A DNA stretch of 64,000 bases from Candidatus Rokuibacteriota bacterium (GTDB taxonomy: Bacteria; Methylomirabilota; Methylomirabilia; Rokubacteriales; CSP1-6), in NCBI GenBank assembly GCA_023248995.1, contig JAHFDN010000001.1:1-64000 (forward strand). Reading direction: 5' to 3'. The notes beneath the pieces were generated by a model that saw only the letters and a program-made list of their open reading frames with translations, was not told the DNA's origin and ran no database searches. Shown piece after piece: positions 31,897 to 43,427 of the stretch. The stretch's first letter is position 1. Each line of letters begins with the position of its first letter. Both the position numbers and the translations under genes were made by a program.

Positions 31897-32658
31897 TTAC
31901 ACGGGGGGTTGGCCAGGGAGGAGGAGCGGGCCCAGGTCGGTGAGGGCCCTGAGCTCGTAGTCCGGCGCGGGGATGCCGGGCGGGAGCGCGTCGCCGTTCG
32001 GGTTGAGCCAGGCCGCGGGCATGCCCATGGCTTTGGCGCCCACGACGTCAATGTCGGCGCGGTCCCCGACGAACAGGGCGTCTCCGGGGCCGATGCCCAG
32101 CCGGCTCAGGGCGGCCTCGAAGATGGCGGCCTTCGGCTTCCGCCACCCGACGTCGGCGGACACCACGACGGTTTCGAAGAGGCCGGTCACTCCCTCCCGG
32201 TCCAGAATCCAGTGCGCAGTTGGCGCGTAGTCGAAGTTGGAGACGATCCCGAGCCTGTACCGGCCGGCGAGCGCCGTCACACAAGCCCGGTGGGCCTCTG
32301 GGAGCTCCGCCGCAAGAGAGAGATGGTATTTATGCGTCTCGAGGAGGTCGGCTAGGACCTCGGCGGGGATCCGGGCGGGTTCGATGCCCAAGCGGCAGAA
32401 GAGGAGCCCGAAGCGGTCGACGGCGGGGACCTCGCGGTGGTCGGTGGCGCGGATCCGTTCCGCTTCCTGCCAGCTCCAGAGGAGCGCCTCGAAGAAGCGG
32501 GGAAGGTCCACGCTCGGCGCATGGGGGGCGAGAATCGGGAAGAGGCGCCCTGCGGTGGAATGCACGGTGGTGCCGTTGATCTGGACCTCCGGCAGGCGGG
32601 TTCTGTCGAACCGGACCAGGGTGTCGAACAGATCGAAGAGGACCGCGGAGAGCCTCAC
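31897..32658 (-). CDS. HAD-superfamily hydrolase
   Basis: 253 aa haloacid-dehalogenase-type phosphatase. Motif I is LFDLFDTLVRFD, motif II is in RLGIVSNFDYAP, the motif III Lys is near DVGWRKPKAAIFEAAL, and motif IV is LFVGDRADIDVVGAKAMGM. The cap is of the C1 helical type (about 20-120). Substrate unknown. It is the last gene coupled to the two giant GGDEF/ATPase/HEAT genes (ATGA overlap at 32655-32658). Confidence 0.9.
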   Translation of the reverse strand: MRLSAVLFDLFDTLVRFDRTRLPEVQINGTTVHSTAGRLFPILAPHAPSVDLPRFFEALLWSWQEAERIRATDHREVPAVDRFGLLFCRLGIEPARIPAEVLADLLETHKYHLSLAAELPEAHRACVTALAGRYRLGIVSNFDYAPTAHWILDREGVTGLFETVVVSADVGWRKPKAAIFEAALSRLGIGPGDALFVGDRADIDVVGAKAMGMPAAWLNPNGDALPPGIPAPDYELRALTDLGPLLLPGQPPV

Positions 32659-35600
32659 CGGGGGGAATCCCCCTGGCGGCGCCGCGACAAGGCCAGGCGG
32701 GCCGTCGAGCGTACGGACAAGCTTGGATCTTTGAGTGCGGCGCGGAGCCCTTCCTCAGACCCGGGAAAGAGAAGCTCGCCGAGGGCGCGGGCCGCGGCGG
32801 CCCGGACAGTTTCCGGGAACCCCCTGACGAGCCCCAAGAAGCGCGGGCGCTGCCGCAGAACATCCACGAGGGGATCAACCGACTCTTCGTCCTTGAGCTG
32901 GCCCAGACAGACGCAGCAGGCCTTCAGCAGGTCGGCCGGCGCCTCCTTCCGGAGGAGCCGGACGATCGCGTCCACAAGTTCCGTCGTGTGGAGCGCCCGC
33001 ACGCCCTCGAGGGCGCCCGCGGCGACCCCGGGTTGCGGCTCCGACAGGGCGCGCCGCAGAAACAGCACTGCAGCGGTCCTCGGTACGCGGGAGAGGACGC
33101 CGGCGAACTCCGCGCGCACGAGCACGTCCGGGTGGGCCAGGAGGGAAAAGAAGTCAGGCCCTAGCTCGGGGGCGAGTAGATCGAGGACGCTGACGATCCG
33201 GCGCGCCACCACCACCGGCGTAGGGGGATGAAGCCGCGGGAGCAGCAACGGGAGCCCGGCGCCGGGCAGTGAGCGGAGGAGGCTCGCGGCGATCTTGCGA
33301 ACGTCCGCATCCTCTTCCTGCGCCACGATGGTCGCGACAAACTGGGCGGTCCCCTCGCCGAGCGCCGCCAGGATGACTCGGCTCTGCTCGCGGCGGTGCG
33401 GCTCGCTGCCCTTCAGGGCGGCCTGGAGCGGCTGGAACACGCCGGCCTGAGCCATCGTCTCTACGGCCGCGGTCGCCATCGGGAGGAGCTTTTTTTGATC
33501 CGGCTTCCCGACCTGTCCTTTGCCCAGTGCTTCGGCCAGGCTCAGCGCGCGCGCGAGGTCGTCGTAGCGGAGGTAGAGCTTGAGGGCCTCGGTCGCGGCG
33601 CGGACTTCCCACTGGAACGCGCGCTGGCCCGCTTCCTTCACCAGGGCCCGCTCCAGGGGCTCGAGCGAGAGCTCACGGAGCCACAACTGCGTGTCGAAGT
33701 TCGCTCCGGTGAGGAGGACGTTGAGGCCCGCGGCGGCCCGCTGGCGGGTCCCTTCCATGGGGTCGGCCAGGCCGGCCATGATCCTCTCCCAGAGGCGGCG
33801 CGCCAAGTCTGTCCGCTCGGAGCCGAGCCAGGAGGCGACGGCGGCGGGGATGTCCTCCTCGCGGAAATCCGAGGTGGCCGAGGGCGAATGCAGCCACTTT
33901 GCAACCTGCTCGAAGAGGCGGTCCTCCTCCCTGGGTGTCCGTGGAGAAGCGGTGGCCGCTTCTCCCGACCCCGTTCCCGCTCCTGCCTCTACCTGTCCCG
34001 GTCTTCCGCCCCCCGTCAGCGAGCCACGGGCCGCAGCGTACGAGCGGCTTCCTACCTGGATCGTCCTGATGCCATGCTCCTCCAGGACCTTACTCAGCAC
34101 CCCAGGGCTCGAGACCTCCTCGGAGGCTTGCTGAGCGAGCTGGGTCAGGAGCACCTGAAGGTCGGCGCGGCTCAATCCCCGCGTCAGCGTGAGGCTGGTC
34201 AGGGCGTTGTCCTGCATGAGTTTGTACAGGAGCGGGATCGTGAGGCCGAACCACTTCGAGTTCGGGCGAACGCCGTTGATCACGATGGCCTCTTCGGCGA
34301 GCGCGAGGGTCACCGAGGGCAGTCGCTCGAGGAGCATCTGGGCCTGGTCCTCCAGCTTCTCCTGGAGCGCGACGTTCAGCTCGTTCTCGGGGGGGTAGAG
34401 CCGGAGGTTATCCACCGCGCCGGCGAGCGACCGGAAGGCTTCGGCCGCCAGGCGCATGGCCTCGTCGTCCAGGATCGTCTCCTCCCCCGCCCGGCCGGCG
34501 CCATGCGTCGCGCTGGCGAGGTAAATGGCGGGGAGGACGCCGATGTGCAGAATGTTCCGGGATCGCATCAACTTCTCCCAAGCGCCCACCTCCGGGGGAA
34601 TCCCCTGCGGCGGGCCGCTCAGGATCCTCAAGAGGTTTTCTATTTCACTCTCGATCGTCCCCCGGACGAATGTGACACTCCGGACGCCATGCTCCCTGAA
34701 GAAGCGGAGGAGATCCTGGACGAGCGCGGCCAGGGTTTTGCCCTCCACGGGCTGGCCGCTGGCCAAGAGAGTGCCGCGATGCTCCGCGAGGGTGATTCCC
34801 TCGCGCTCTTCGAGCAGGCGCAGCAGCATGGAGGCGGCGCCGGCCACCTCCTCCCGCACGAGCAGGTTCCCCGCGGGGAAGACGCGCATGTTCTTCAACG
34901 CAAGAGCCATGGTCTTGATGAACGAGAGCGCCAGGGGCAGGGTGGCCTCGTCGAGCGGCTCGGAGTCCTCCGGGATCCTTACCTTGACGGTCGCCGCCTC
35001 GCGACCGTCGCCGGATCCGGTCGCCACGCCCCCAGGGTCGGTGCCGGTCCTCCCGCCGGAGGAGCCCCCGCCCTCGCCGGCCCCGGGCGCCCCGACATCG
35101 GCCGCCGAAAAGAACCACTCGCGGAGCGCCCGAAGTTTTTGACGATAGAATCCGGCCTTGCCGGCATCGTCGGAGCGCTCGAAGTGGTAGGCGATCGGCC
35201 CGATAGCCTCCTCGCCCCCGACCCCCGCCAGGCCCTCGTAGACCTGGGCGACCTTGCGGTGCGTCTGGCGGCGGTGGGCCGGGTCCACGCCCCCGTAGAC
35301 GAATTCGCGGAGTCGCTCGTTCGAGAACCGGATCTCTCCCGGGTCCGCCGCGGGATCGCCCGGCTCGAACACCCCGGAGGCACGACCCCGATCCACCAGG
35401 TGGAGGGTCTCTCCGGGGTCCTGGCCCAGCACTTCGGCCAGGACGGGCAGATCCACGGTCGGGCCGATGATGGAAGCCTCCGACACGATCTCGAGGGTCT
35501 CCGCGTCCAGGTTCTCCAGGCGCCGCGCGATGGCTTCGTCAGCGGAGGCGGGGAAATCCTCGGGCGTCAGCTGCTCGAAATTCCACGCCTTCTCTTCCTG

Positions 35601-36986
35601 GCGAAGGAGCCCCCGCGTGATCAGCCCTTTCAGCGTCTCCTCGACGAGCAGCGGGACCCCCCGGCTGACCTCGAAGAGTTGCTGCTGGAAGCGGAGGGGC
35701 GGTGCGGGGTGCCGGAGGATGTCGGCCGCCAGATCCCCGACCTGCCCCAGCGTCAGGCGGGAGAGTGCCAGCCGGCGGAACTGGGAGGAGGCCTCGAAGT
35801 ACGGCAGGAAGGCGCGGAGCGCGCGTACGTCCGTGTGGGGCTCGTCTTCCTCGGGGAGGTCCACCACCGCGGTGGCGTGAACGATGACCCTCCCCTCCTC
35901 CCGGCTCAGGAGGTGGAGGAAGACCTCCAGGCTGGCTTCGTCCGCCCAATCGAGGTTTTCCAGGAAGACCGCCACGGGCGTACCCTCGGAGATCAGACAG
36001 AGGAGATCCAGCATGGCCTGGAAGAGCTGGCGCCGGCGCTCGGGAGCGGGGATCTCCTCGAGAGTGCCTTTGCTCGGGCTCAGGAAGGGAAGAACCGAGC
36101 CCGCCGCCGCCAGCTTCGGCCCGGCGAGCCGCGCCGCGGCGGGCGCGATCAGCTCCGGGGAGCGGTCGAAGTATTCCTGGAGCAGCGGCCCGAGCGTGCT
36201 GTAGGGGACGGCCCGGTGATGAGGCAGGCAGCCGCCCTGGATAGACTTGAGACCGACACTCCGGGCAAGGGCAGGCAGCTCCGCCAGAAACCGGCTCTTT
36301 CCTAGGCCGTGTTCGCCTTGCACGAGGATGAATCGGCTCCGTCCTGAGGCTGCCCCTTCGAAGAGCGACCGGCAGAGGTCGAGCTCCTTCTCCCTCCCCA
36401 AAAGGCGCGGGCGGTGCAGTTGCGCGAGCGCCTCCTTGTCCGTCGGGAGCCTCTCGCCCGTGTCCTGGCTCGTGCGGTTCTTGCCCAGGCGCTTGGCGCG
36501 CGCGAGGGCGTGTCGCGCCTTCTCGATCAGCCCGGAGGCGGTCTGGACCTCGTCGGGGAATGTGGCCACGCCCAGGCTCGCCTTCGTGGGGATCCCGCCG
36601 GGCGCGTGCGGGACGACGATCGGGGCCGCGCCGATCCGAGCGCGGATCTTCTCGGCGACGACCATCGCGTGGTCGCCGTTCGCCCCCTCGAGAAAGACGA
36701 AGTACTGGTCGCCCGCGTAGCGAATGGCGAACCCCCCCTTGCGCCGCCCTTCCTCGAGGAGCAGGGCCACCTGTCTTAGGACGACGTCGCCGGCGAGGCG
36801 GCCGTGGGTCTCGTTGATCGCCTTGAAGTTGTCGAGGTCAACCAGGAGCACCGAGAGCGGAATCTTCTCGGAGGCGAGCCACTTAAAGCGCTCGCGCAGG
36901 TACTGCGCCATAAACCACCAGTTGTAAAGGCCCGTCAGGCGATCAAGGAAGAGGAGCCGGGTAGGGTCGCGAAGCGGGACCGTCAT
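32655..36986 (-). CDS. Giant GGDEF-like / STAND ATPase / HEAT-repeat protein (paralogue 2)
   Basis: 1443 aa, multidomain. Residues about 10-170 are a GGDEF domain (DRLTGLYNWWFMAQYLRERF, LLVDLDNFKAINETHGRLAG), but the active motif reads AGDQY, so diguanylate cyclase activity is unlikely. From about 190, GREKELDLCRSLFEG leads a STAND-type ATPase with P-loop GEHGLGKS and Walker B VAVFLENLDWADEASLEVFL. Next comes a helical region, then two related modules centred on MRVFPAGNLLV and LRLYPPENELN. The last 300 residues are HEAT-like repeats. A low-complexity Gly/Ala linker (about 620-655) is notable. Its ATG overlaps the stop of the upstream paralogue. Confidence 0.85.
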   Translation of the reverse strand: MTVPLRDPTRLLFLDRLTGLYNWWFMAQYLRERFKWLASEKIPLSVLLVDLDNFKAINETHGRLAGDVVLRQVALLLEEGRRKGGFAIRYAGDQYFVFLEGANGDHAMVVAEKIRARIGAAPIVVPHAPGGIPTKASLGVATFPDEVQTASGLIEKARHALARAKRLGKNRTSQDTGERLPTDKEALAQLHRPRLLGREKELDLCRSLFEGAASGRSRFILVQGEHGLGKSRFLAELPALARSVGLKSIQGGCLPHHRAVPYSTLGPLLQEYFDRSPELIAPAAARLAGPKLAAAGSVLPFLSPSKGTLEEIPAPERRRQLFQAMLDLLCLISEGTPVAVFLENLDWADEASLEVFLHLLSREEGRVIVHATAVVDLPEEDEPHTDVRALRAFLPYFEASSQFRRLALSRLTLGQVGDLAADILRHPAPPLRFQQQLFEVSRGVPLLVEETLKGLITRGLLRQEEKAWNFEQLTPEDFPASADEAIARRLENLDAETLEIVSEASIIGPTVDLPVLAEVLGQDPGETLHLVDRGRASGVFEPGDPAADPGEIRFSNERLREFVYGGVDPAHRRQTHRKVAQVYEGLAGVGGEEAIGPIAYHFERSDDAGKAGFYRQKLRALREWFFSAADVGAPGAGEGGGSSGGRTGTDPGGVATGSGDGREAATVKVRIPEDSEPLDEATLPLALSFIKTMALALKNMRVFPAGNLLVREEVAGAASMLLRLLEEREGITLAEHRGTLLASGQPVEGKTLAALVQDLLRFFREHGVRSVTFVRGTIESEIENLLRILSGPPQGIPPEVGAWEKLMRSRNILHIGVLPAIYLASATHGAGRAGEETILDDEAMRLAAEAFRSLAGAVDNLRLYPPENELNVALQEKLEDQAQMLLERLPSVTLALAEEAIVINGVRPNSKWFGLTIPLLYKLMQDNALTSLTLTRGLSRADLQVLLTQLAQQASEEVSSPGVLSKVLEEHGIRTIQVGSRSYAAARGSLTGGGRPGQVEAGAGTGSGEAATASPRTPREEDRLFEQVAKWLHSPSATSDFREEDIPAAVASWLGSERTDLARRLWERIMAGLADPMEGTRQRAAAGLNVLLTGANFDTQLWLRELSLEPLERALVKEAGQRAFQWEVRAATEALKLYLRYDDLARALSLAEALGKGQVGKPDQKKLLPMATAAVETMAQAGVFQPLQAALKGSEPHRREQSRVILAALGEGTAQFVATIVAQEEDADVRKIAASLLRSLPGAGLPLLLPRLHPPTPVVVARRIVSVLDLLAPELGPDFFSLLAHPDVLVRAEFAGVLSRVPRTAAVLFLRRALSEPQPGVAAGALEGVRALHTTELVDAIVRLLRKEAPADLLKACCVCLGQLKDEESVDPLVDVLRQRPRFLGLVRGFPETVRAAAARALGELLFPGSEEGLRAALKDPSLSVRSTARLALSRRRQGDSPR

Positions 36987-39900
36987 GCCTTCGGCCTGGC
37001 TTCGAGTTCTTGTTCCAGCCTGAGGAGCGCCAGGCGGGCGGCCGAACGGACCGTCTTGTTCCGCTCCTTCAGGGCGACCTGAAGCCCCAACTTGGCTTCA
37101 GGGATGGCAAGCTCGCCCAGCGCGCGGGCGGCCGTCGCCCGGACGCCTTCGGGGAGGCCCTTTTTGAGACCGAAGAAGCGCGGCCGCTGCCCGAGGATCT
37201 GAAGGAGGGGGCCGATTGCACGGGTGTCCTTGAGCTTCCCCAGGCAAAGGCACGCGACGCGCAGCACGTGGTCGTTGGCCGGGTTGTCGAGGATCCGGAG
37301 CACCGCGTCGAGCAGCTCGACCCCCTGGAGGCCCCTCACGCACTCGAGCGCCCCCACCAGCACGTCGGACTTTCGCTGGCTCAGGGCTTGGCCGAGGAAG
37401 CGCATGGCCTGGTCGCGGCCGAGGCGCGTTAGCGTCCGCCCCGTTTCGGCTCGGACCTCCGCCTCGGGGTGGCCCAGGAGGAACAGGAACTCGTTTCCCA
37501 GGGCCGGGACCAGCAGGTCGATCACTGCCACGATCCGACAGAGCCGCTCGATCGACTCGGATCGATGGAGCTCGTCGGTCAGGAGGCGGACGCTGGCCTC
37601 TCCCTGGGCCCGCACGAGCGTCGCGGCGGCCCGGGAAACCTCCTCGTCCGCGCCGTCGAAGATCAGGCCCAGCAGCATGGGGACCGCCGCGGCGCCCAGC
37701 CCCGACAGGATGGCGCTCCCCTGCTGCCGTCGGATCGGATCGCGGTCCTTCAGGGCCATCAAGACGGGCTCGAGGGCGCCCACGGCGGCGAGGGAATCCA
37801 CGAGGCCCTTGACGGATTCCAGGAACTTCCCGGGATCGGGCCCCCTTTCTGATGTGCCGGCAAGCCCCTCGGCGAGCCGCGCCGCGCGCGAGAGATCGCC
37901 GGCGACGAGGAAGTGCTTCAAGCCGGCAGAGACGACTTTCACCTCGACTTGAAAGGCCTCTAGCTCCCGCTCTTTCCCGAGAGCCGTCGCGAGCGGCTCG
38001 GTCATCACGGAAAGGAGCCAGGTGACCGCCTCCTCCTGGGCCTCCCTGAGGCAAAGGGCCAGACCCTCCGCCGCCTTGCGCCGGAGAGTTCCGTCCGCCT
38101 GCCCCAGGCCGGACGCGGTTCGCTCGACGAGTTGGCGCGCGAGGTCTTCGCGTTCCCTGCGTTTGAGGGCCTGGATCAAGGCCGGGAGTTCTTCCTGGAT
38201 TCGTCGCTCCAAGAAGTTTGCCAGCGGTTCCCCGAGCAGCTCGGCCGCGCGTCGAAGGGTCGGCTCGGTCTCGGAGACCTCCATCTGGCCCGGCGGGCGC
38301 GGACCCTCCTCGGGCGGAGCCTCGGGTTCGGCGGTCTTGGCCTGCTCGAGTCGGGTGGCAGCAGCGTACAGCCGAGTCCCGACCTCGATCGTCGAGATCC
38401 CTCGCCCTTCCAGGACGCTCCGCCAGAAGGTCGGCGCCCGTTGCTCCTCTTCGACGGGCTGGGCCAAGTGGGTGAGGAAGAGGCGAAGCTCTTCGCGGGT
38501 CACCCCTCGCCGGATGGTGAGGCTCGTCAGGCCGCTATCCTCCATGAGCCGGTGCAAGATCTCGATCGTGATGCCGAAGAGCCGGGGATTCGGCCGGGTC
38601 GCGTTGACGACGAGCGCCCCTTCGGCCATGGCGAGGGTCAGGCTCGGAATCCGCGTCAACAGCGTCTGCATCTGCCGTTCGAGCTGATCGAGGGTGTGGG
38701 TGATCAGCTGGCTCTCCGGCGGATAGAGGCGGATGTTGTCCACCGAGGTGGCGAGCACGCGCAGGGCGTCCCGCACCAGCACGAGCGTCGGGTCGTCGAG
38801 CTCCACCTCCTTCTGCTCCCGCCGCCAGATCGTCCGGCCCTCCGTCGCGGCCAGATAGATGACTGGGAACACGCGCACGTGCGCGATCTTCGCCGATTTG
38901 AGCCGTTGCTCCCAGAAAGCCACGTCGTGCTGGATCCCCTCGGGTGGTCCGCTCAGGATCTTGAGGAAGCCCAGCACGTCCGCCTGCGTTGCTCCGCGCT
39001 CGAACGTGCACCGGCGAATCCCGTGGTCGGCGTAAGTCCTCAGAAGCTCCTGTGCGAACGGGAGCAGTCCCTTGCTCTCCACCGTGCGGCCGTTGAGCTG
39101 CAGGCTCTGGCTCTCCTCGGCCAAGGTCACGGCTTCGACGCGGGCCAAGAGCTCGCCGATTGCGCCGCTCACGCTGGCCCAGCCGTCGGTCACGAGCTGG
39201 CTTCCCTCCGGGTACACGCGCATGTTCTTCACGGCCACGGTCAAAGCTCTCAAAAACCGATCGGCCAGGGGCCAGGTGCGCTCGTCCAGCGCGAGCGTGG
39301 TTTCGGTGGTCCCGACCTTCAGACTGAGCTCGCGCGCGAGCTCGTCGGCGGAGAATAACTGCCCGGAGAACTCCTGGACGCGCCGGCGGTAGAAATCGGC
39401 CTTGGCGGGGTCGTCCGACCGCTCGAAGTGGTACGCCAGCGGCCCGAGCGCCTCGTCCACCAGCGGGCCCGCCAACCGCTCGGTCACCTCTCCCACCACT
39501 CGGTGGGTCCGCTGACGGTCGTTCGGATCCAGGTGGTAGTACACGACCTGCTGGAAACACTGGCTCAGGAAGCGGACCTCGTCGTCGTCCCCGAGGGGAC
39601 CCGGGTCCTCGAACACGCGGTGCTTCTTCCCCTGATCCACCAGCGCCAGGGTTTCTCCCGCGTCCTTCCCCAATACCCCCGAGAGAAGCGAGAGGTCCAC
39701 ATGGGGGCCGACCACCGCCGCTCTCGTGATCATCGTTTGGGTTTCCTGGTCGAGGGTCTCCAGTCCTCCCAGGATGGCGGCCTCGAGGGTCGCCGGGACG
39801 GCCTCGGGCTCCACCGCGTCCAGGTTCCAGATTCCCTGGGGTGATTGAAGGGCGCCCTTGGCGATGAGCCCCTTGAGTGTTTCCTCGACGAAGAGCGGGA

Positions 39901-41227
39901 TGCCGCGGCTCGCCTCGTAGAGGCGCTCGAAGAAGGCCGGCGAGCCCTCGGAGTTGACCAGGATCTCGGTCACCATCTGCGCGACCTGGGAAGGCGTCAG
40001 GGACGGCAGGCTGAGCCGGGCGAGGCTCGGCGATTGGCGCAGGAGCGCGAAGAGCCGCTGAAGGGGGCCAGGCGTTCCCTCCTGTTTGGCGAGGCCCTCG
40101 GACTGGGTCGCGGCGTAGACGATCACCCGGCCTTCCTCCCGGTCCAGGAGGCGATAGAGGACCTCGAGGCTCGCCTCGTCCACGAAGTGGAGGTCGTCGA
40201 GGAACAGGACCAGGGGGGCGCCCTCCGAGAGGAGGCAGAGGAGATCTTCCATGGCATGGAAGAGAAGGCTCCGCCGGTCCTCCGGAGCGAGCGGCTGCCG
40301 TGGCGGGTCGGCAGTCGCCAGGGCGGGAATGAGCGTGCCGATTTCCGCCACGGTGGGCGCGGAGAGCCGGCGTCGGATCGCGTCTTGGTGCTCCGTCGCG
40401 CGCCCGAGGTAGTCGGAAAGCGCCTCTTTGAGGGTGCTGTAGGGGATGGCCTGGTTCGAGTGCAGGCATCGGGTAAACAGGCACCTGAGCCCCCGGTTCA
40501 CGGCGCGGGCCTGTAATTCCAGGAGGAGGCGGGTCTTGCCCACGCCGCGGCTGGCCTCGACGAGGAAGAGCCGGTTCTTGCGCAGAGCCTCGTTGAGGAG
40601 CGGTTGCTCGAGCTGGCTCAACTCCCCTTCCCGCCCGACCAGCCGCGGGCACGGGAAGCGCTTGAAGATTTCCGCCTCGGACGGAAGCGTCCAACCGCCC
40701 GCCCGGCTCACGCAGTTCTTCCCCATCCGCTTGGAGCGGTAGAGAGCCTGGTCGGCGGCCTCGATGAGCTGGGACGGCGCGGCCGCGTCCTCGGGGTAGG
40801 CGGCGACGCCGAGGCTCAGGCGGACGGAGATTCCGGTAGGCGCCTTGGGGGTGGCAAAGGAGTCGGCGCTCACGCGTTCCCTGATCGTCTCGGCCACCCG
40901 GACCCCTCCGGCGCCGTCGGTCCCTTCCAGAAACGCGAAAAATTCGTCCCCGGCAAAGCGAATGGCATATCCGCCGGGGGGGAGAGCCTCGCGGACGATC
41001 TCGGCAACCCGCTTCAGGACGAGGTCACCCTCGAGGTGACCGTACGTGTCGTTGATCTGCTTGAAGCCGTCCAGATCGAGCATGATGACGGCGAGGCTGC
41101 TTCGCTCCCGGGTCAGCTGGTCCAGGCGCTCGCGCAGATACTGCCGCATGAACCGCCGGTTGTAGAGCCCGGTCAGCTCATCAACGAAAATGAGCCGTGA
41201 GGCCTCACGAATCCCTGCGATCGCCAT
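36983..41227 (-). CDS. Giant GGDEF / STAND ATPase / HEAT-repeat protein (paralogue 1)
   Basis: 1414 aa with the same architecture as the next gene. The GGDEF domain at about 10-170 (DELTGLYNRRFMRQYLRERL, LDLDGFKQINDTYGHLEGD) has the motif AGDEF, so it keeps Asp-Glu and could be active. The ATPase from about 200 has an atypical P-loop, EASRGVGKTRLLLEL, and Walker B LVLFLDDLHFVDEASLEVLY. Two repeated modules follow (KNMRVYPEGSQLV and DNIRLYPPESQLI), then HEAT-like repeats from about 1130. It looks like a signalling hub that links nucleotide signalling to protein scaffolding. A sigma-54 promoter lies 56 bp upstream. Confidence 0.87.
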   Translation of the reverse strand: MAIAGIREASRLIFVDELTGLYNRRFMRQYLRERLDQLTRERSSLAVIMLDLDGFKQINDTYGHLEGDLVLKRVAEIVREALPPGGYAIRFAGDEFFAFLEGTDGAGGVRVAETIRERVSADSFATPKAPTGISVRLSLGVAAYPEDAAAPSQLIEAADQALYRSKRMGKNCVSRAGGWTLPSEAEIFKRFPCPRLVGREGELSQLEQPLLNEALRKNRLFLVEASRGVGKTRLLLELQARAVNRGLRCLFTRCLHSNQAIPYSTLKEALSDYLGRATEHQDAIRRRLSAPTVAEIGTLIPALATADPPRQPLAPEDRRSLLFHAMEDLLCLLSEGAPLVLFLDDLHFVDEASLEVLYRLLDREEGRVIVYAATQSEGLAKQEGTPGPLQRLFALLRQSPSLARLSLPSLTPSQVAQMVTEILVNSEGSPAFFERLYEASRGIPLFVEETLKGLIAKGALQSPQGIWNLDAVEPEAVPATLEAAILGGLETLDQETQTMITRAAVVGPHVDLSLLSGVLGKDAGETLALVDQGKKHRVFEDPGPLGDDDEVRFLSQCFQQVVYYHLDPNDRQRTHRVVGEVTERLAGPLVDEALGPLAYHFERSDDPAKADFYRRRVQEFSGQLFSADELARELSLKVGTTETTLALDERTWPLADRFLRALTVAVKNMRVYPEGSQLVTDGWASVSGAIGELLARVEAVTLAEESQSLQLNGRTVESKGLLPFAQELLRTYADHGIRRCTFERGATQADVLGFLKILSGPPEGIQHDVAFWEQRLKSAKIAHVRVFPVIYLAATEGRTIWRREQKEVELDDPTLVLVRDALRVLATSVDNIRLYPPESQLITHTLDQLERQMQTLLTRIPSLTLAMAEGALVVNATRPNPRLFGITIEILHRLMEDSGLTSLTIRRGVTREELRLFLTHLAQPVEEEQRAPTFWRSVLEGRGISTIEVGTRLYAAATRLEQAKTAEPEAPPEEGPRPPGQMEVSETEPTLRRAAELLGEPLANFLERRIQEELPALIQALKRREREDLARQLVERTASGLGQADGTLRRKAAEGLALCLREAQEEAVTWLLSVMTEPLATALGKERELEAFQVEVKVVSAGLKHFLVAGDLSRAARLAEGLAGTSERGPDPGKFLESVKGLVDSLAAVGALEPVLMALKDRDPIRRQQGSAILSGLGAAAVPMLLGLIFDGADEEVSRAAATLVRAQGEASVRLLTDELHRSESIERLCRIVAVIDLLVPALGNEFLFLLGHPEAEVRAETGRTLTRLGRDQAMRFLGQALSQRKSDVLVGALECVRGLQGVELLDAVLRILDNPANDHVLRVACLCLGKLKDTRAIGPLLQILGQRPRFFGLKKGLPEGVRATAARALGELAIPEAKLGLQVALKERNKTVRSAARLALLRLEQELEARPKA

Positions 41228-41282: not shown

Positions 41283-41298
41283 TGCACCAAACGTGCCA
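41283..41298 (-). promoter_or_regulatory. Sigma-54 (RpoN) promoter for the GGDEF/STAND/HEAT operon
   Basis: Minus-strand TGGCACGTTTGGTGCA matches the TGGCACGnnnnTTGCW consensus at 15 of 16 positions, including the required GG and GC at the -24 and -12 steps, 10 bp apart. The start of transcription would be near 41272, leaving a leader of about 45 nt before the ATG at 41227. Confidence 0.72.
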
Positions 41299-41433: not shown

Positions 41434-42444
41434 CTACGGGGTCTTCGGGAGCTCGGCTCGTAGGGTCCGAACGATGCCGACCATCGCCGCGAGCTTCGCC
41501 CGGCTCTCCTCGACCGTGCGGGTTTTGAGCCCACAGTCCGGGTCCACCCAGATGCGCTCCGTCGGCAGGACGCGCAGGCCGCGCATGATGCGCGCGCGGA
41601 TCTCCTCCCGGGTTTCGATCTTGTGGCTGTGCACGTCCAGCACGCCCAGGGAGAGATCTTTGGTGAAGGGGTCCTTCTCGAAGATTTTGAGGAGGTCGAG
41701 CGCGCTGTTTGAGATGGCGAGATCGAGATTATCGACCGGAAGCTCCAGCATGTCAGGGTAGATGGTCTCGAAGGCCCCGTAGCAGGCGTGGGTGATGAAG
41801 TAGGCGGGCAGCCCGTCCACGGTGAGGGAGAGGGCTTCGATCGCGAAGGGCAGCTCCTCCTGACGGACGGAGATTGCCGGCTCGTCAATCTGGATGATCT
41901 TGGCTCCGGCCTCGATGAGCGCCTCGACTTCTTTTCGGATCTCCCTCGCCAGAGCGAGGCAGGCGGACTTGCGGTCCGGGTAGTAGTCGTTGAACGACCA
42001 GTCCATGATCGTGTAGGGACCGGTGAGCATCCCCTTCACTGGTTTCGTCGTCAGGCTCTGAGTCCACCGCCACCACGCGACCGTCATGGGGGCCGGCCAC
42101 CGGACGGGGCCCACGATGATCGGCTTGTGGTAGTAGCGGTTGCCGTAGGAACGGACCAGGCCGCCCGTCCGGAAGCCGCCCATGATCTCCGCGAAATGGG
42201 CCACCATGTCGCCCCGGTACTGCTCGCCGTCCACGAGGACGTCGAGCCCGATCTCTTCCTGCGCGCGCACCCAGTACTCGGTCGCTTTCTTCTCGAGCGC
42301 CTCCAGCTCAGGCCTGGTGAGCTCTTTGCGCGCGTACTTCGTTCGCGCCGCGGCCAGCTCCGGGGTCTTGGGGAAGCTGCCCACGGTGCTCGTGGGGAGC
42401 AGGGGCAGATCGAGGCCCAGGCGCGCGAGTTTCTGTCGGCTCAT
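41434..42444 (-). CDS. Cobalamin-independent methionine synthase-like protein (core MetE)
   Basis: 336 aa, only the catalytic barrel of MetE. Opening PTSTVGSFPKTPELAAARTK and DVLVDGEQYRGDMVAHFAEI are typical. Zinc ligands are kept: His and Cys in FITHACYGAF, and the distal Cys in WVDPDCGLKTR. QIDEPAISVRQEELPFAIEA is the conserved core. Core MetE enzymes move a methyl group to homocysteine from donors other than polyglutamyl folate. It overlaps the second MetE-like gene by 4 bp. Confidence 0.88.
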   Translation of the reverse strand: MSRQKLARLGLDLPLLPTSTVGSFPKTPELAAARTKYARKELTRPELEALEKKATEYWVRAQEEIGLDVLVDGEQYRGDMVAHFAEIMGGFRTGGLVRSYGNRYYHKPIIVGPVRWPAPMTVAWWRWTQSLTTKPVKGMLTGPYTIMDWSFNDYYPDRKSACLALAREIRKEVEALIEAGAKIIQIDEPAISVRQEELPFAIEALSLTVDGLPAYFITHACYGAFETIYPDMLELPVDNLDLAISNSALDLLKIFEKDPFTKDLSLGVLDVHSHKIETREEIRARIMRGLRVLPTERIWVDPDCGLKTRTVEESRAKLAAMVGIVRTLRAELPKTP

Positions 42445-43427
42445 GATCGTCCCCCGAGGTAGGCGTCCCGGAGGCGTTTCATCGTCTCGAGCTTCTGCCG
42501 GGCGCGGTCGCGCGGCAGGAACTCGAGCCCGCAGGACGGCATGAGGAAGGCCTGCCCGACCTTGAGGGCGGGGAGCACCGTGTCGAGAATGGGGAAAACG
42601 CCCTCCCGCGTCTCGAGCTTCGTGTTTCGCGCGTCGATCAACCCGAGCGCCAGGGGTTTGTCGGAGCCCGCCTCGGCGATGAGCATGGCCAGCTTGGGGC
42701 CGTAGGTGAAGTCCAGGCCGAGCACGTCCACGGGCATGGCCTGGAGGTCACGGTAAAGGGGCGTGACGTCGCCGAACGACGTATGGAGCATCAGCCGCGA
42801 CGTCCCGCGCTCGGCGGCCAGTGGCGCGAGGGCCTCCTCGAGCACGTTCAGGTCCTCGGGGTGGCGCAGGATGGCCGGCTCGTCCACCTGGATGAGCGTC
42901 GCCCCTGCGCCTGCCAGGTCTCGGACCTCCTGGGCCAGCGGGTCGGCGTAGGCGAGCGCTAAGGCGTGGACCGAGGCGTAGGCCCCGCCGAGGATCGAGC
43001 CTCGCGCCAGCGTGTACGGTCCCGTCAGCACGGGCTTGATCGGACGGGACGACACGGAGCGGGCGAACTCGTACTCCGGCAGGAGGATCGGTCCTCGGCG
43101 GTGGACCCGTCCCCGGACGACCGGCTGGCGGAAGTAGACGTTCGTGTCGAAGAGGCGGAGGAGACCGTTGATCTCGATTCCCTCGAGGCGGCGCGCCAGG
43201 TGGGAGTAGGGATCGTACCAGCGAATCTGGCCGTCGGTGACGAGCTCGATCCCCGCCTCGATCTGCTCGCGGATGGCGGCCGCGGTCACCTCGTCCTCGA
43301 CTTCTCCGAACGCTTCCTCGCTCAGTTCCCCCCGTTCCCGCTGGCCGTAGGCCTGGCGGTGGCGTTGAAGGTCCGGGGCATCGCCGATCCGCGGATAACT
43401 TCCCGCGGTGGTCAGAGTCAGTTCCAT
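42441..43427 (-). CDS. MetE-like methyltransferase paralogue with altered zinc site
   Basis: 328 aa core-MetE homologue: LTTAGSYPRIGDAPDLQRHR, ELVTDGQIRWYDPYSHLARR, KPVLTGPYTLARGSILGGAY, IQVDEPAILRHPEDLNVLEE. The first zinc motif is LMLHTSFGD, that is His-x-Ser instead of His-x-Cys, while the distal Cys (LMPSCGLEFLP) remains. It may use a different metal geometry or substrate from its neighbour, or act as its partner subunit. The gene follows DUF2203 by 11 bp. Confidence 0.82.
   Translation of the reverse strand: MELTLTTAGSYPRIGDAPDLQRHRQAYGQRERGELSEEAFGEVEDEVTAAAIREQIEAGIELVTDGQIRWYDPYSHLARRLEGIEINGLLRLFDTNVYFRQPVVRGRVHRRGPILLPEYEFARSVSSRPIKPVLTGPYTLARGSILGGAYASVHALALAYADPLAQEVRDLAGAGATLIQVDEPAILRHPEDLNVLEEALAPLAAERGTSRLMLHTSFGDVTPLYRDLQAMPVDVLGLDFTYGPKLAMLIAEAGSDKPLALGLIDARNTKLETREGVFPILDTVLPALKVGQAFLMPSCGLEFLPRDRARQKLETMKRLRDAYLGGRS

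Follow-up and report, generated by a model that had tools for sequence, protein, structure and literature searches.

GGDEF domains act as dimers, and the canonical diguanylate cyclases PleD and WspR are controlled by phosphorylation of a receiver and carry an RxxD site for inhibition. STAND ATPases, which assemble on ATP binding, are familiar mainly as components of immunity and as transcriptional regulators. Nucleotide cyclase/AAA_16 repeat proteins, such as those of Rhizobium and the TOMM kinase/cyclase fusion (TIGR03903), share with the two proteins reported here an N-terminal cyclase-type domain followed by an AAA_16 and helical unit. DUF3391 HD-GYP phosphodiesterases have an N-terminal domain of ~140 aa followed by HD-GYP, a plan also seen in the module-HD-GYP proteins described below. 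In RcbA/RcbB of Vibrio vulnificus, a two-gene c-di-GMP unit, the GGDEF domain of one repeat protein is de-represses by the other, acting through like repeat domains in both partners (PMC12282931).

The locus lies in a window of 64,000 nt (the whole stretch of DNA analyzed) at the start of a contig from a Candidatus Rokuibacteriota bacterium. A first-pass annotation had described two adjacent paralogues of ~1.4 kaa with the order GGDEF, STAND-type ATPase, two repeats and HEAT-like repeats, an order that it could not assign to a named system. Both open reading frames were found, overlapping by ATGA, and the domain order was upheld by Pfam and an internal-repeat match.

36983..41227, minus strand: gene A, 1,414 aa; GGDEF, AAA_16/STAND, module 1, module 2, HEAT solenoid
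32655..36986, minus strand: gene B, 1,443 aa; domain order as in A
36983..36986, minus strand: ATGA start/stop overlap of A and B, read from the sequence
31897..32658, minus strand: HAD-like hydrolase gene, named by reading the sequence, with no profile; 4-nt overlap with the end of B

The HAD-like hydrolase gene is possibly a third gene of the operon. A and B were 42% identical across their length, and identity was similar from domain to domain (40 to 51%), indicating that both have been kept as whole proteins. Pfam matches were obtained in each for GGDEF at aa 14 to 171 (A, E 4.1e-43; B, E 1.9e-31), for AAA_16 at aa ~195 to 367 (A, E 2.1e-21; B, E 3e-22) and for HEAT_2 at the C terminus (A, E 3.6e-12; B, E 4.4e-15), and no Pfam family matched aa ~640 to 985 of either protein. 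Full-length orthologues at 67 to 70% identity were found in related genomes; the nearest named relative, a Candidatus Rokuibacteriota MAG, had an identical A-B arrangement and 68% identity to the entire A. Judged from their sequences, A and B are genuine conserved genes. No convincing membrane segment was present in either, the maximal 19-aa hydropathies being 1.7 and 2.1, with the value of 2.1 falling within the HEAT part.

The N-terminal domains were examined for the residues associated with cyclase activity.

40715..41188, minus strand: GGDEF domain of A, by Pfam
40940..40954, minus strand: AGDEF active-site motif of A, from sequence and alignment
36474..36947, minus strand: GGDEF domain of B, by Pfam
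36702..36716, minus strand: AGDQY motif of B (GDQYF codons GGC GAC CAG TAC TTC)

The earlier readings of AGDEF in A and AGDQY in B were both correct. All of the GGDEF features checked were present in A (AGDEF, the metal Asp in DLDGFK, ND-Y-GH--GD and a K-GK tail), which thus combines a GGDEF match with the signature and the metal Asp; its product is predicted to be an active diguanylate cyclase. PleD and WspR were among the best matches of the GGDEF domain, but, unlike in these enzymes, neither receiver control nor an RxxD inhibitory site was seen here, the stretch just ahead of the A signature being devoid of RxxD. The Asp of the GD motif favors c-di-GMP over the product of cGAMP-type Hypr enzymes; its retention in the alignment, therefore, speaks for c-di-GMP as the product. 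The signature was also found in five B orthologues and not in the window's B, due to AGDQY. Every A and all five B orthologues covering the region (L009, L118, L119, L120 and L123) carried AGDEF, as did 23/26 of the aligned giant proteins that cover the site, and AGDQY was restricted, among readable B orthologues, to the window's B. The proposal of a catalytic/regulatory heteromer, in so far as it rested on a dead GGDEF in B, was thus rejected as a general rule, as the loss is peculiar to this genome. Independent decay of the signature was observed in two single-copy giants of another phylum, both on long branches (AGDNF in L210:7039-11334 and GADEF in L211:6367-10611). With the signature degraded in these two proteins and in the window's B, cyclase activity would appear not to be essential everywhere.

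The second domain was identified as a STAND-type ATPase, as had been claimed, by the combination of AAA_16, a region matching the TOMM kinase/cyclase model and a conserved GxP motif.

40127..40645, minus strand: AAA_16 NTPase core of A; Walker A GVGKT, Walker B LFLDDL
39383..40126, minus strand: STAND lid/helical region of A with a GIP (GxP) motif, within the TOMM_kin_cyc match
35895..36407, minus strand: AAA_16 core of B, Walker A intact
35952..35966, minus strand: Walker B of B, FLENL replacing FLDDL

Walker A was present in all giants covering it and GxP was present in 27/28, the exception (L130) having GNT. The Walker B motif was LDD in all A proteins, and an acidic pair was found in all outgroup giants; all six B proteins covering this site had LEN, indicating a fixed asymmetry between A and B. 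The published Walker B consensus permits Asp or Glu at the first, metal position (PMC7583971), and hence B may still hydrolyze ATP; the motif of B is, by its sequence, probably altered, a term that fits better than dead. A partial match to TIGR03903 in NCBIfam extended the ATPase unit to aa ~611 (B, aa 189 to 611, E 5.7e-28). The two proteins nevertheless fell far under the cut-off of this model (97 and 90 bits versus 705.75, or 97 versus 706 at best), the ATPase part alone being matched, and differ from the cyclase/AAA_16 proteins in that GGDEF takes the place of the adenylate cyclase domain and the tail consists of two undescribed modules plus a HEAT solenoid. A search of plasmids gave only partial cyclase/AAA matches, among them Rhizobium plasmid proteins annotated as adenylate/guanylate cyclases, with 24% identity over aa 41 to 604 of A. 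A and B were filed with the STAND-regulated cyclases. Four more large AAA_16 open reading frames (1,027 to 1,396 aa) without the module were present in the same genome (G000:C25:77036, C4:38350, C22:286032 and C56:47682, loci L002, L005, L006 and L001, respectively), three of them with a second, weaker AAA_16-like match.

The remainder of each protein consists of two repeats and a helical tail.

38834..39292, minus strand: module 1 of A, from the internal repeat and a profile
38345..38803, minus strand: module 2 of A, AlphaFold mean pLDDT 86
34503..34958, minus strand: module 1 of B, by profile
34020..34475, minus strand: module 2 of B, by profile
36998..38275, minus strand: C-terminal HEAT-like alpha solenoid of A, from the HEAT_2 profile and an AlphaFold model
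32673..33944, minus strand: C-terminal HEAT-like solenoid of B, from the HEAT_2 profile and the A-B alignment

The AlphaFold model of the C terminus of A was wholly helical from aa ~987, with a pLDDT of about 80 to 90, and Foldseek matched this solenoid to alphaRep and PP2A scaffold HEAT proteins (E 5e-7 to 1e-5, with low TM-scores). Both the profile and an alpha-solenoid fold were, therefore, in agreement with HEAT repeats. A model of the two modules plus the solenoid was of low confidence in its tandem-module half, which was excluded from use. The claim of two repeats was borne out by a match between modules 1 and 2 of A (33% identity, E 3.5e-19; repeat length, ~155 aa). The R-x-Y/F-P motif by which the repeats had been recognized is present in this lineage but is lineage specific: the Arg was absent from all three HD-GYP rows and from 1/3 HEAT rows of the module alignment and was, hence, rejected as a universal signature. 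What is widely conserved is a turn made of an aromatic residue and Pro (Y-P) and, further on, a Gly. A single module was modeled with confidence (pLDDT 86, pTM 0.81) as two long helices and a hairpin followed by mixed alpha/beta structure.

No match to this module was found in Pfam, among the sequences of solved structures (best E 0.015, to an LRR protein and chance-like) or, with the model as the query, among PDB and viral models (best E 0.49 and 0.31, TM ≤0.35), and identity with a known domain was rejected on this basis. As the fold has no annotated relative, it suggests no ligand. DUF3391 left the module region unmatched, its sole match (E 0.034) lying outside the module at aa 143 to 182. 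The centre of A and B thus remained without a named family, in line with the first-pass annotation. That annotation had also made its case dependent on the central and C-terminal parts lying outside any well-described family; a wider module/HEAT family does exist, but it is itself undescribed and, hence, novelty is not lost. No paper describing the GGDEF-STAND-HEAT order or pairs of HEAT and HD-GYP genes was found among open-licence literature.

A single-module profile was built from the module alignment and searched against whole genomes, phylum by phylum. Positive genomes numbered 38/95 in the same phylum, 63/148 in the phylum of a Desulfuromonadales genome and 35/119 in Acidobacteriota, the phylum of a Bryobacteraceae genome; for other phyla (Chloroflexota, Cyanobacteria, Spirochaetes and others), 2 of 24 genomes were positive, a sample too small to exclude the module there. 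Profile matches that belong to no Pfam or PDB family were recurrently fused to GGDEF, HD-GYP, HEAT and PilZ domains: the fusions detected were to GGDEF-STAND (n = 27), HD-GYP (n = 50), HEAT, cNMP-binding plus PilZ (n = 2) and histidine kinase (n = 1), so that the module mostly stands beside domains making, breaking or sensing c-di-GMP. GGDEF-STAND-module(1-2)-HEAT proteins occurred in all three phyla, the Acidobacteriota copy (L273) ending at a contig end before any HEAT. Reading of the loci with Pfam identified module-HEAT, module-HD-GYP, module-HEAT-cNMP-PilZ (L216 and L255) and module-histidine kinase (L258) as the other architectures. The same gene follows in both PilZ-bearing loci (L216:7014-12056 and L255:4920-7676); with its CPFC-type start (FYRRQLPGA...CPFC), it reads like a zinc-finger primase-type protein.

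Same-strand module genes adjoined 49/50 of the module-HD-GYP genes, a count that is not a rate since some loci were fetched for having two hits, and the HEAT-type gene lay upstream. The order was reversed in one entry (L278, where two pairs follow each other) and the only lone module-HD-GYP gene (L132) was near a contig end. Gaps between the HEAT and HD-GYP genes were mostly −25 to +25 nt, the majority of pairs overlapping or standing no more than ~15 nt apart, with a 4-nt overlap frequent, and four seemingly lone HEAT-module genes also had an HD-GYP neighbor whose N-terminal part had diverged. The 49 pairs read came from three phyla (L133, L134, L136, L137, L217-L243, L249-L262 and L278-L285). 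Read from domain content, the HEAT/HD-GYP pair is an undescribed, putative c-di-GMP phosphodiesterase unit. On the module tree, the host-architecture label changed 9 times versus ~83 after shuffling, indicating that the architecture classes are old lineages rather than products of recent shuffling. The gene A product is best read as the predicted synthetic counterpart of this pair. The genome itself contained only the four modules of A and B and no module-bearing HD-GYP protein, so the link between counterparts is one of homology and not of co-occurrence; its c-di-GMP setting comprised 7 GGDEF, 14 PilZ and 4 HD_5 matches.

A promoter-like site was detected upstream of gene A.

41283..41298, minus strand: sigma-54-like -24/-12 element TGGCACGTTTGGTGCA, 71 nt upstream of A

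This element (TGGCACG-N4-GTGCA) fits 11/12 consensus positions and was the only 11/12 site in the 64-kb window; rpoN is present in the genome. An 11/12 element preceded 7/7 A orthologues of the pair-bearing branch, including one from another family (L122), these being related sequences rather than independent tests. It was missing ahead of A in the A-only branch of genus g14 and in most outgroups, and no site of this type was found ahead of the HEAT/HD-GYP pairs (0/49). Two adjacent MetE C-terminal-like genes, named by reading, lie directly upstream of A (41434-43427); this pair also precedes A in L009, and relatives are found near A in several near genera. Apart from the MetE-like pair in near genera, no neighbor was recurrent; hence, the neighbors point to no pathway or signal and were rejected as a clue to one.

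As GGDEF domains work as dimers and STAND ATPases assemble with ATP, the simplest machine would be a solenoid-gated STAND assembly that unites GGDEF domains. The C-terminal HEAT solenoid of A would bind a signal or partner protein, and the signal would pass via the two modules to the ATPase, which would load ATP and self-assemble, bringing the N-terminal GGDEF domains together in a c-di-GMP-making dimer. B would be an anciently duplicated, co-translated partner in contact with A; with its altered Walker B, it probably binds ATP with little hydrolysis and could keep a joint assembly ON or primed. Made from the same mRNA, it could tune or lock the assembly of A, and in most lineages it may supply a second working GGDEF domain, one that is degraded in this genome. 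The module would be a dedicated adaptor which, with a HEAT arm, may also serve the two-gene HEAT/HD-GYP unit elsewhere. That A is a STAND-switched soluble diguanylate cyclase, B its co-translated partner and the module an adaptor for c-di-GMP enzymes is a reading to which we give an even chance of being correct.

The distribution of the two genes bears on whether they work together. At E 1e-5, a two-module profile detected 22/95 genomes of the phylum, weak single-module matches included. A-B pairs were present in genera g1, g13, g16 and g18. The first-pass annotation had staked the pairing on related genomes not carrying only one such gene, but A was found alone in G074, G075 and G077 (all g14) and in G010 and G014 (another family), and a single giant was found in G128, G252 and G154 of another phylum; an obligate pair was, therefore, rejected. 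The giant of G010 (L121) lacks its start and that of G074 (L127) stops at a contig edge, a genome-wide search giving one giant each. These single-A genomes, together with the AGDEF retained in B orthologues, favor a different arrangement, in which A and B are two cyclases, each a homodimer, that work in parallel on inputs that are alike but distinct, and the tandem reflects operon duplication rather than a complex. G253, a genome of the second phylum, has two giants in tandem with a gap of ~500 nt, likewise demonstrating that tandems can occur without overlap. Against this arrangement, which we consider unlikely, the 4-nt overlap was kept in all six pairs with a readable junction (that of the window and five others), no genome with B and without A was detected by the two-module profile among the 95 genomes of the phylum, and the Walker B change conserved in all six covering B proteins marks a fixed asymmetry. 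Given this overlap and the conserved Walker B difference, A and B may form a lineage-specific complex. In the tree, all B proteins formed one clade and all A proteins another, both fully supported and beside the giants of the second phylum, so that the duplication looks old, with later loss of B or transfer of A by itself.

The classical role of STAND proteins is regulatory, and most of the mass of A and B is ATPase and solenoid. The GGDEF domain could, on this basis, be mainly a nucleotide-binding sensor or dimerization device, with the output being STAND-HEAT protein-protein signaling like that of MalT, and the GGDEF residues lost in the window's B, L210 and L211 are consistent with such a role. 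It is, however, a distinctly improbable one given the AGDEF of 23/26 giants, the absence of any DNA-binding output domain in Pfam searches and the company that the module keeps with other c-di-GMP domains (HD-GYP and PilZ). STAND proteins also act in defense (Avs). NTP-dependent conflict systems do, in rare cases, carry a GGDEF domain (PMC7159879), but an anti-phage STAND sensor with a cyclase effector is highly improbable here: no Avs-like PADLOC model covered either protein (B gave nothing and A gave only a long HEAT model over the repeats and a weak P-loop match), no recurrent partner gene was found among the neighbors, inheritance was mostly vertical within genera and the sigma-54-like promoter was conserved.

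For a two-gene unit of repeat proteins that regulates a GGDEF domain, RcbA/RcbB is a precedent, as an analogue and with no claim of homology. The two systems are alike in having alpha-solenoid repeats in both partners of a c-di-GMP unit and differ in that the repeats of RcbA/RcbB are TPR rather than HEAT, with neither a STAND ATPase nor the module named in the abstract (PMC12282931).

The most interesting part of these findings is the undescribed module that links GGDEF-STAND giants, HEAT/HD-GYP pairs and PilZ proteins in three phyla. It could mark an unrecognized modular c-di-GMP system spanning three phyla or more (Methylomirabilota, Rokubacteria included, the phylum of Desulfuromonadales, and Acidobacteriota), in which synthesis would fall to a STAND-switched GGDEF-STAND-module-HEAT protein, hydrolysis to a two-gene unit of HEAT-module and module-HD-GYP proteins and the effector role to proteins bearing PilZ, and in which one new adaptor or sensor fold with HEAT arms would recognize a common signal or scaffold; this we put forward tentatively, as a proposal somewhat more apt to fail than to hold. 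The module is a candidate new domain for Pfam and supplies a shared role, open to testing, for many hypothetical genes labelled "HEAT" or "HD" in environmental bacteria. With a STAND ATPase joined to a second-messenger cyclase, c-di-GMP output could be set directly by assembly that ATP drives, and the two-copy operon, thanks to the conserved Walker B change of its B gene, offers a natural experiment in how asymmetric STAND assemblies behave.
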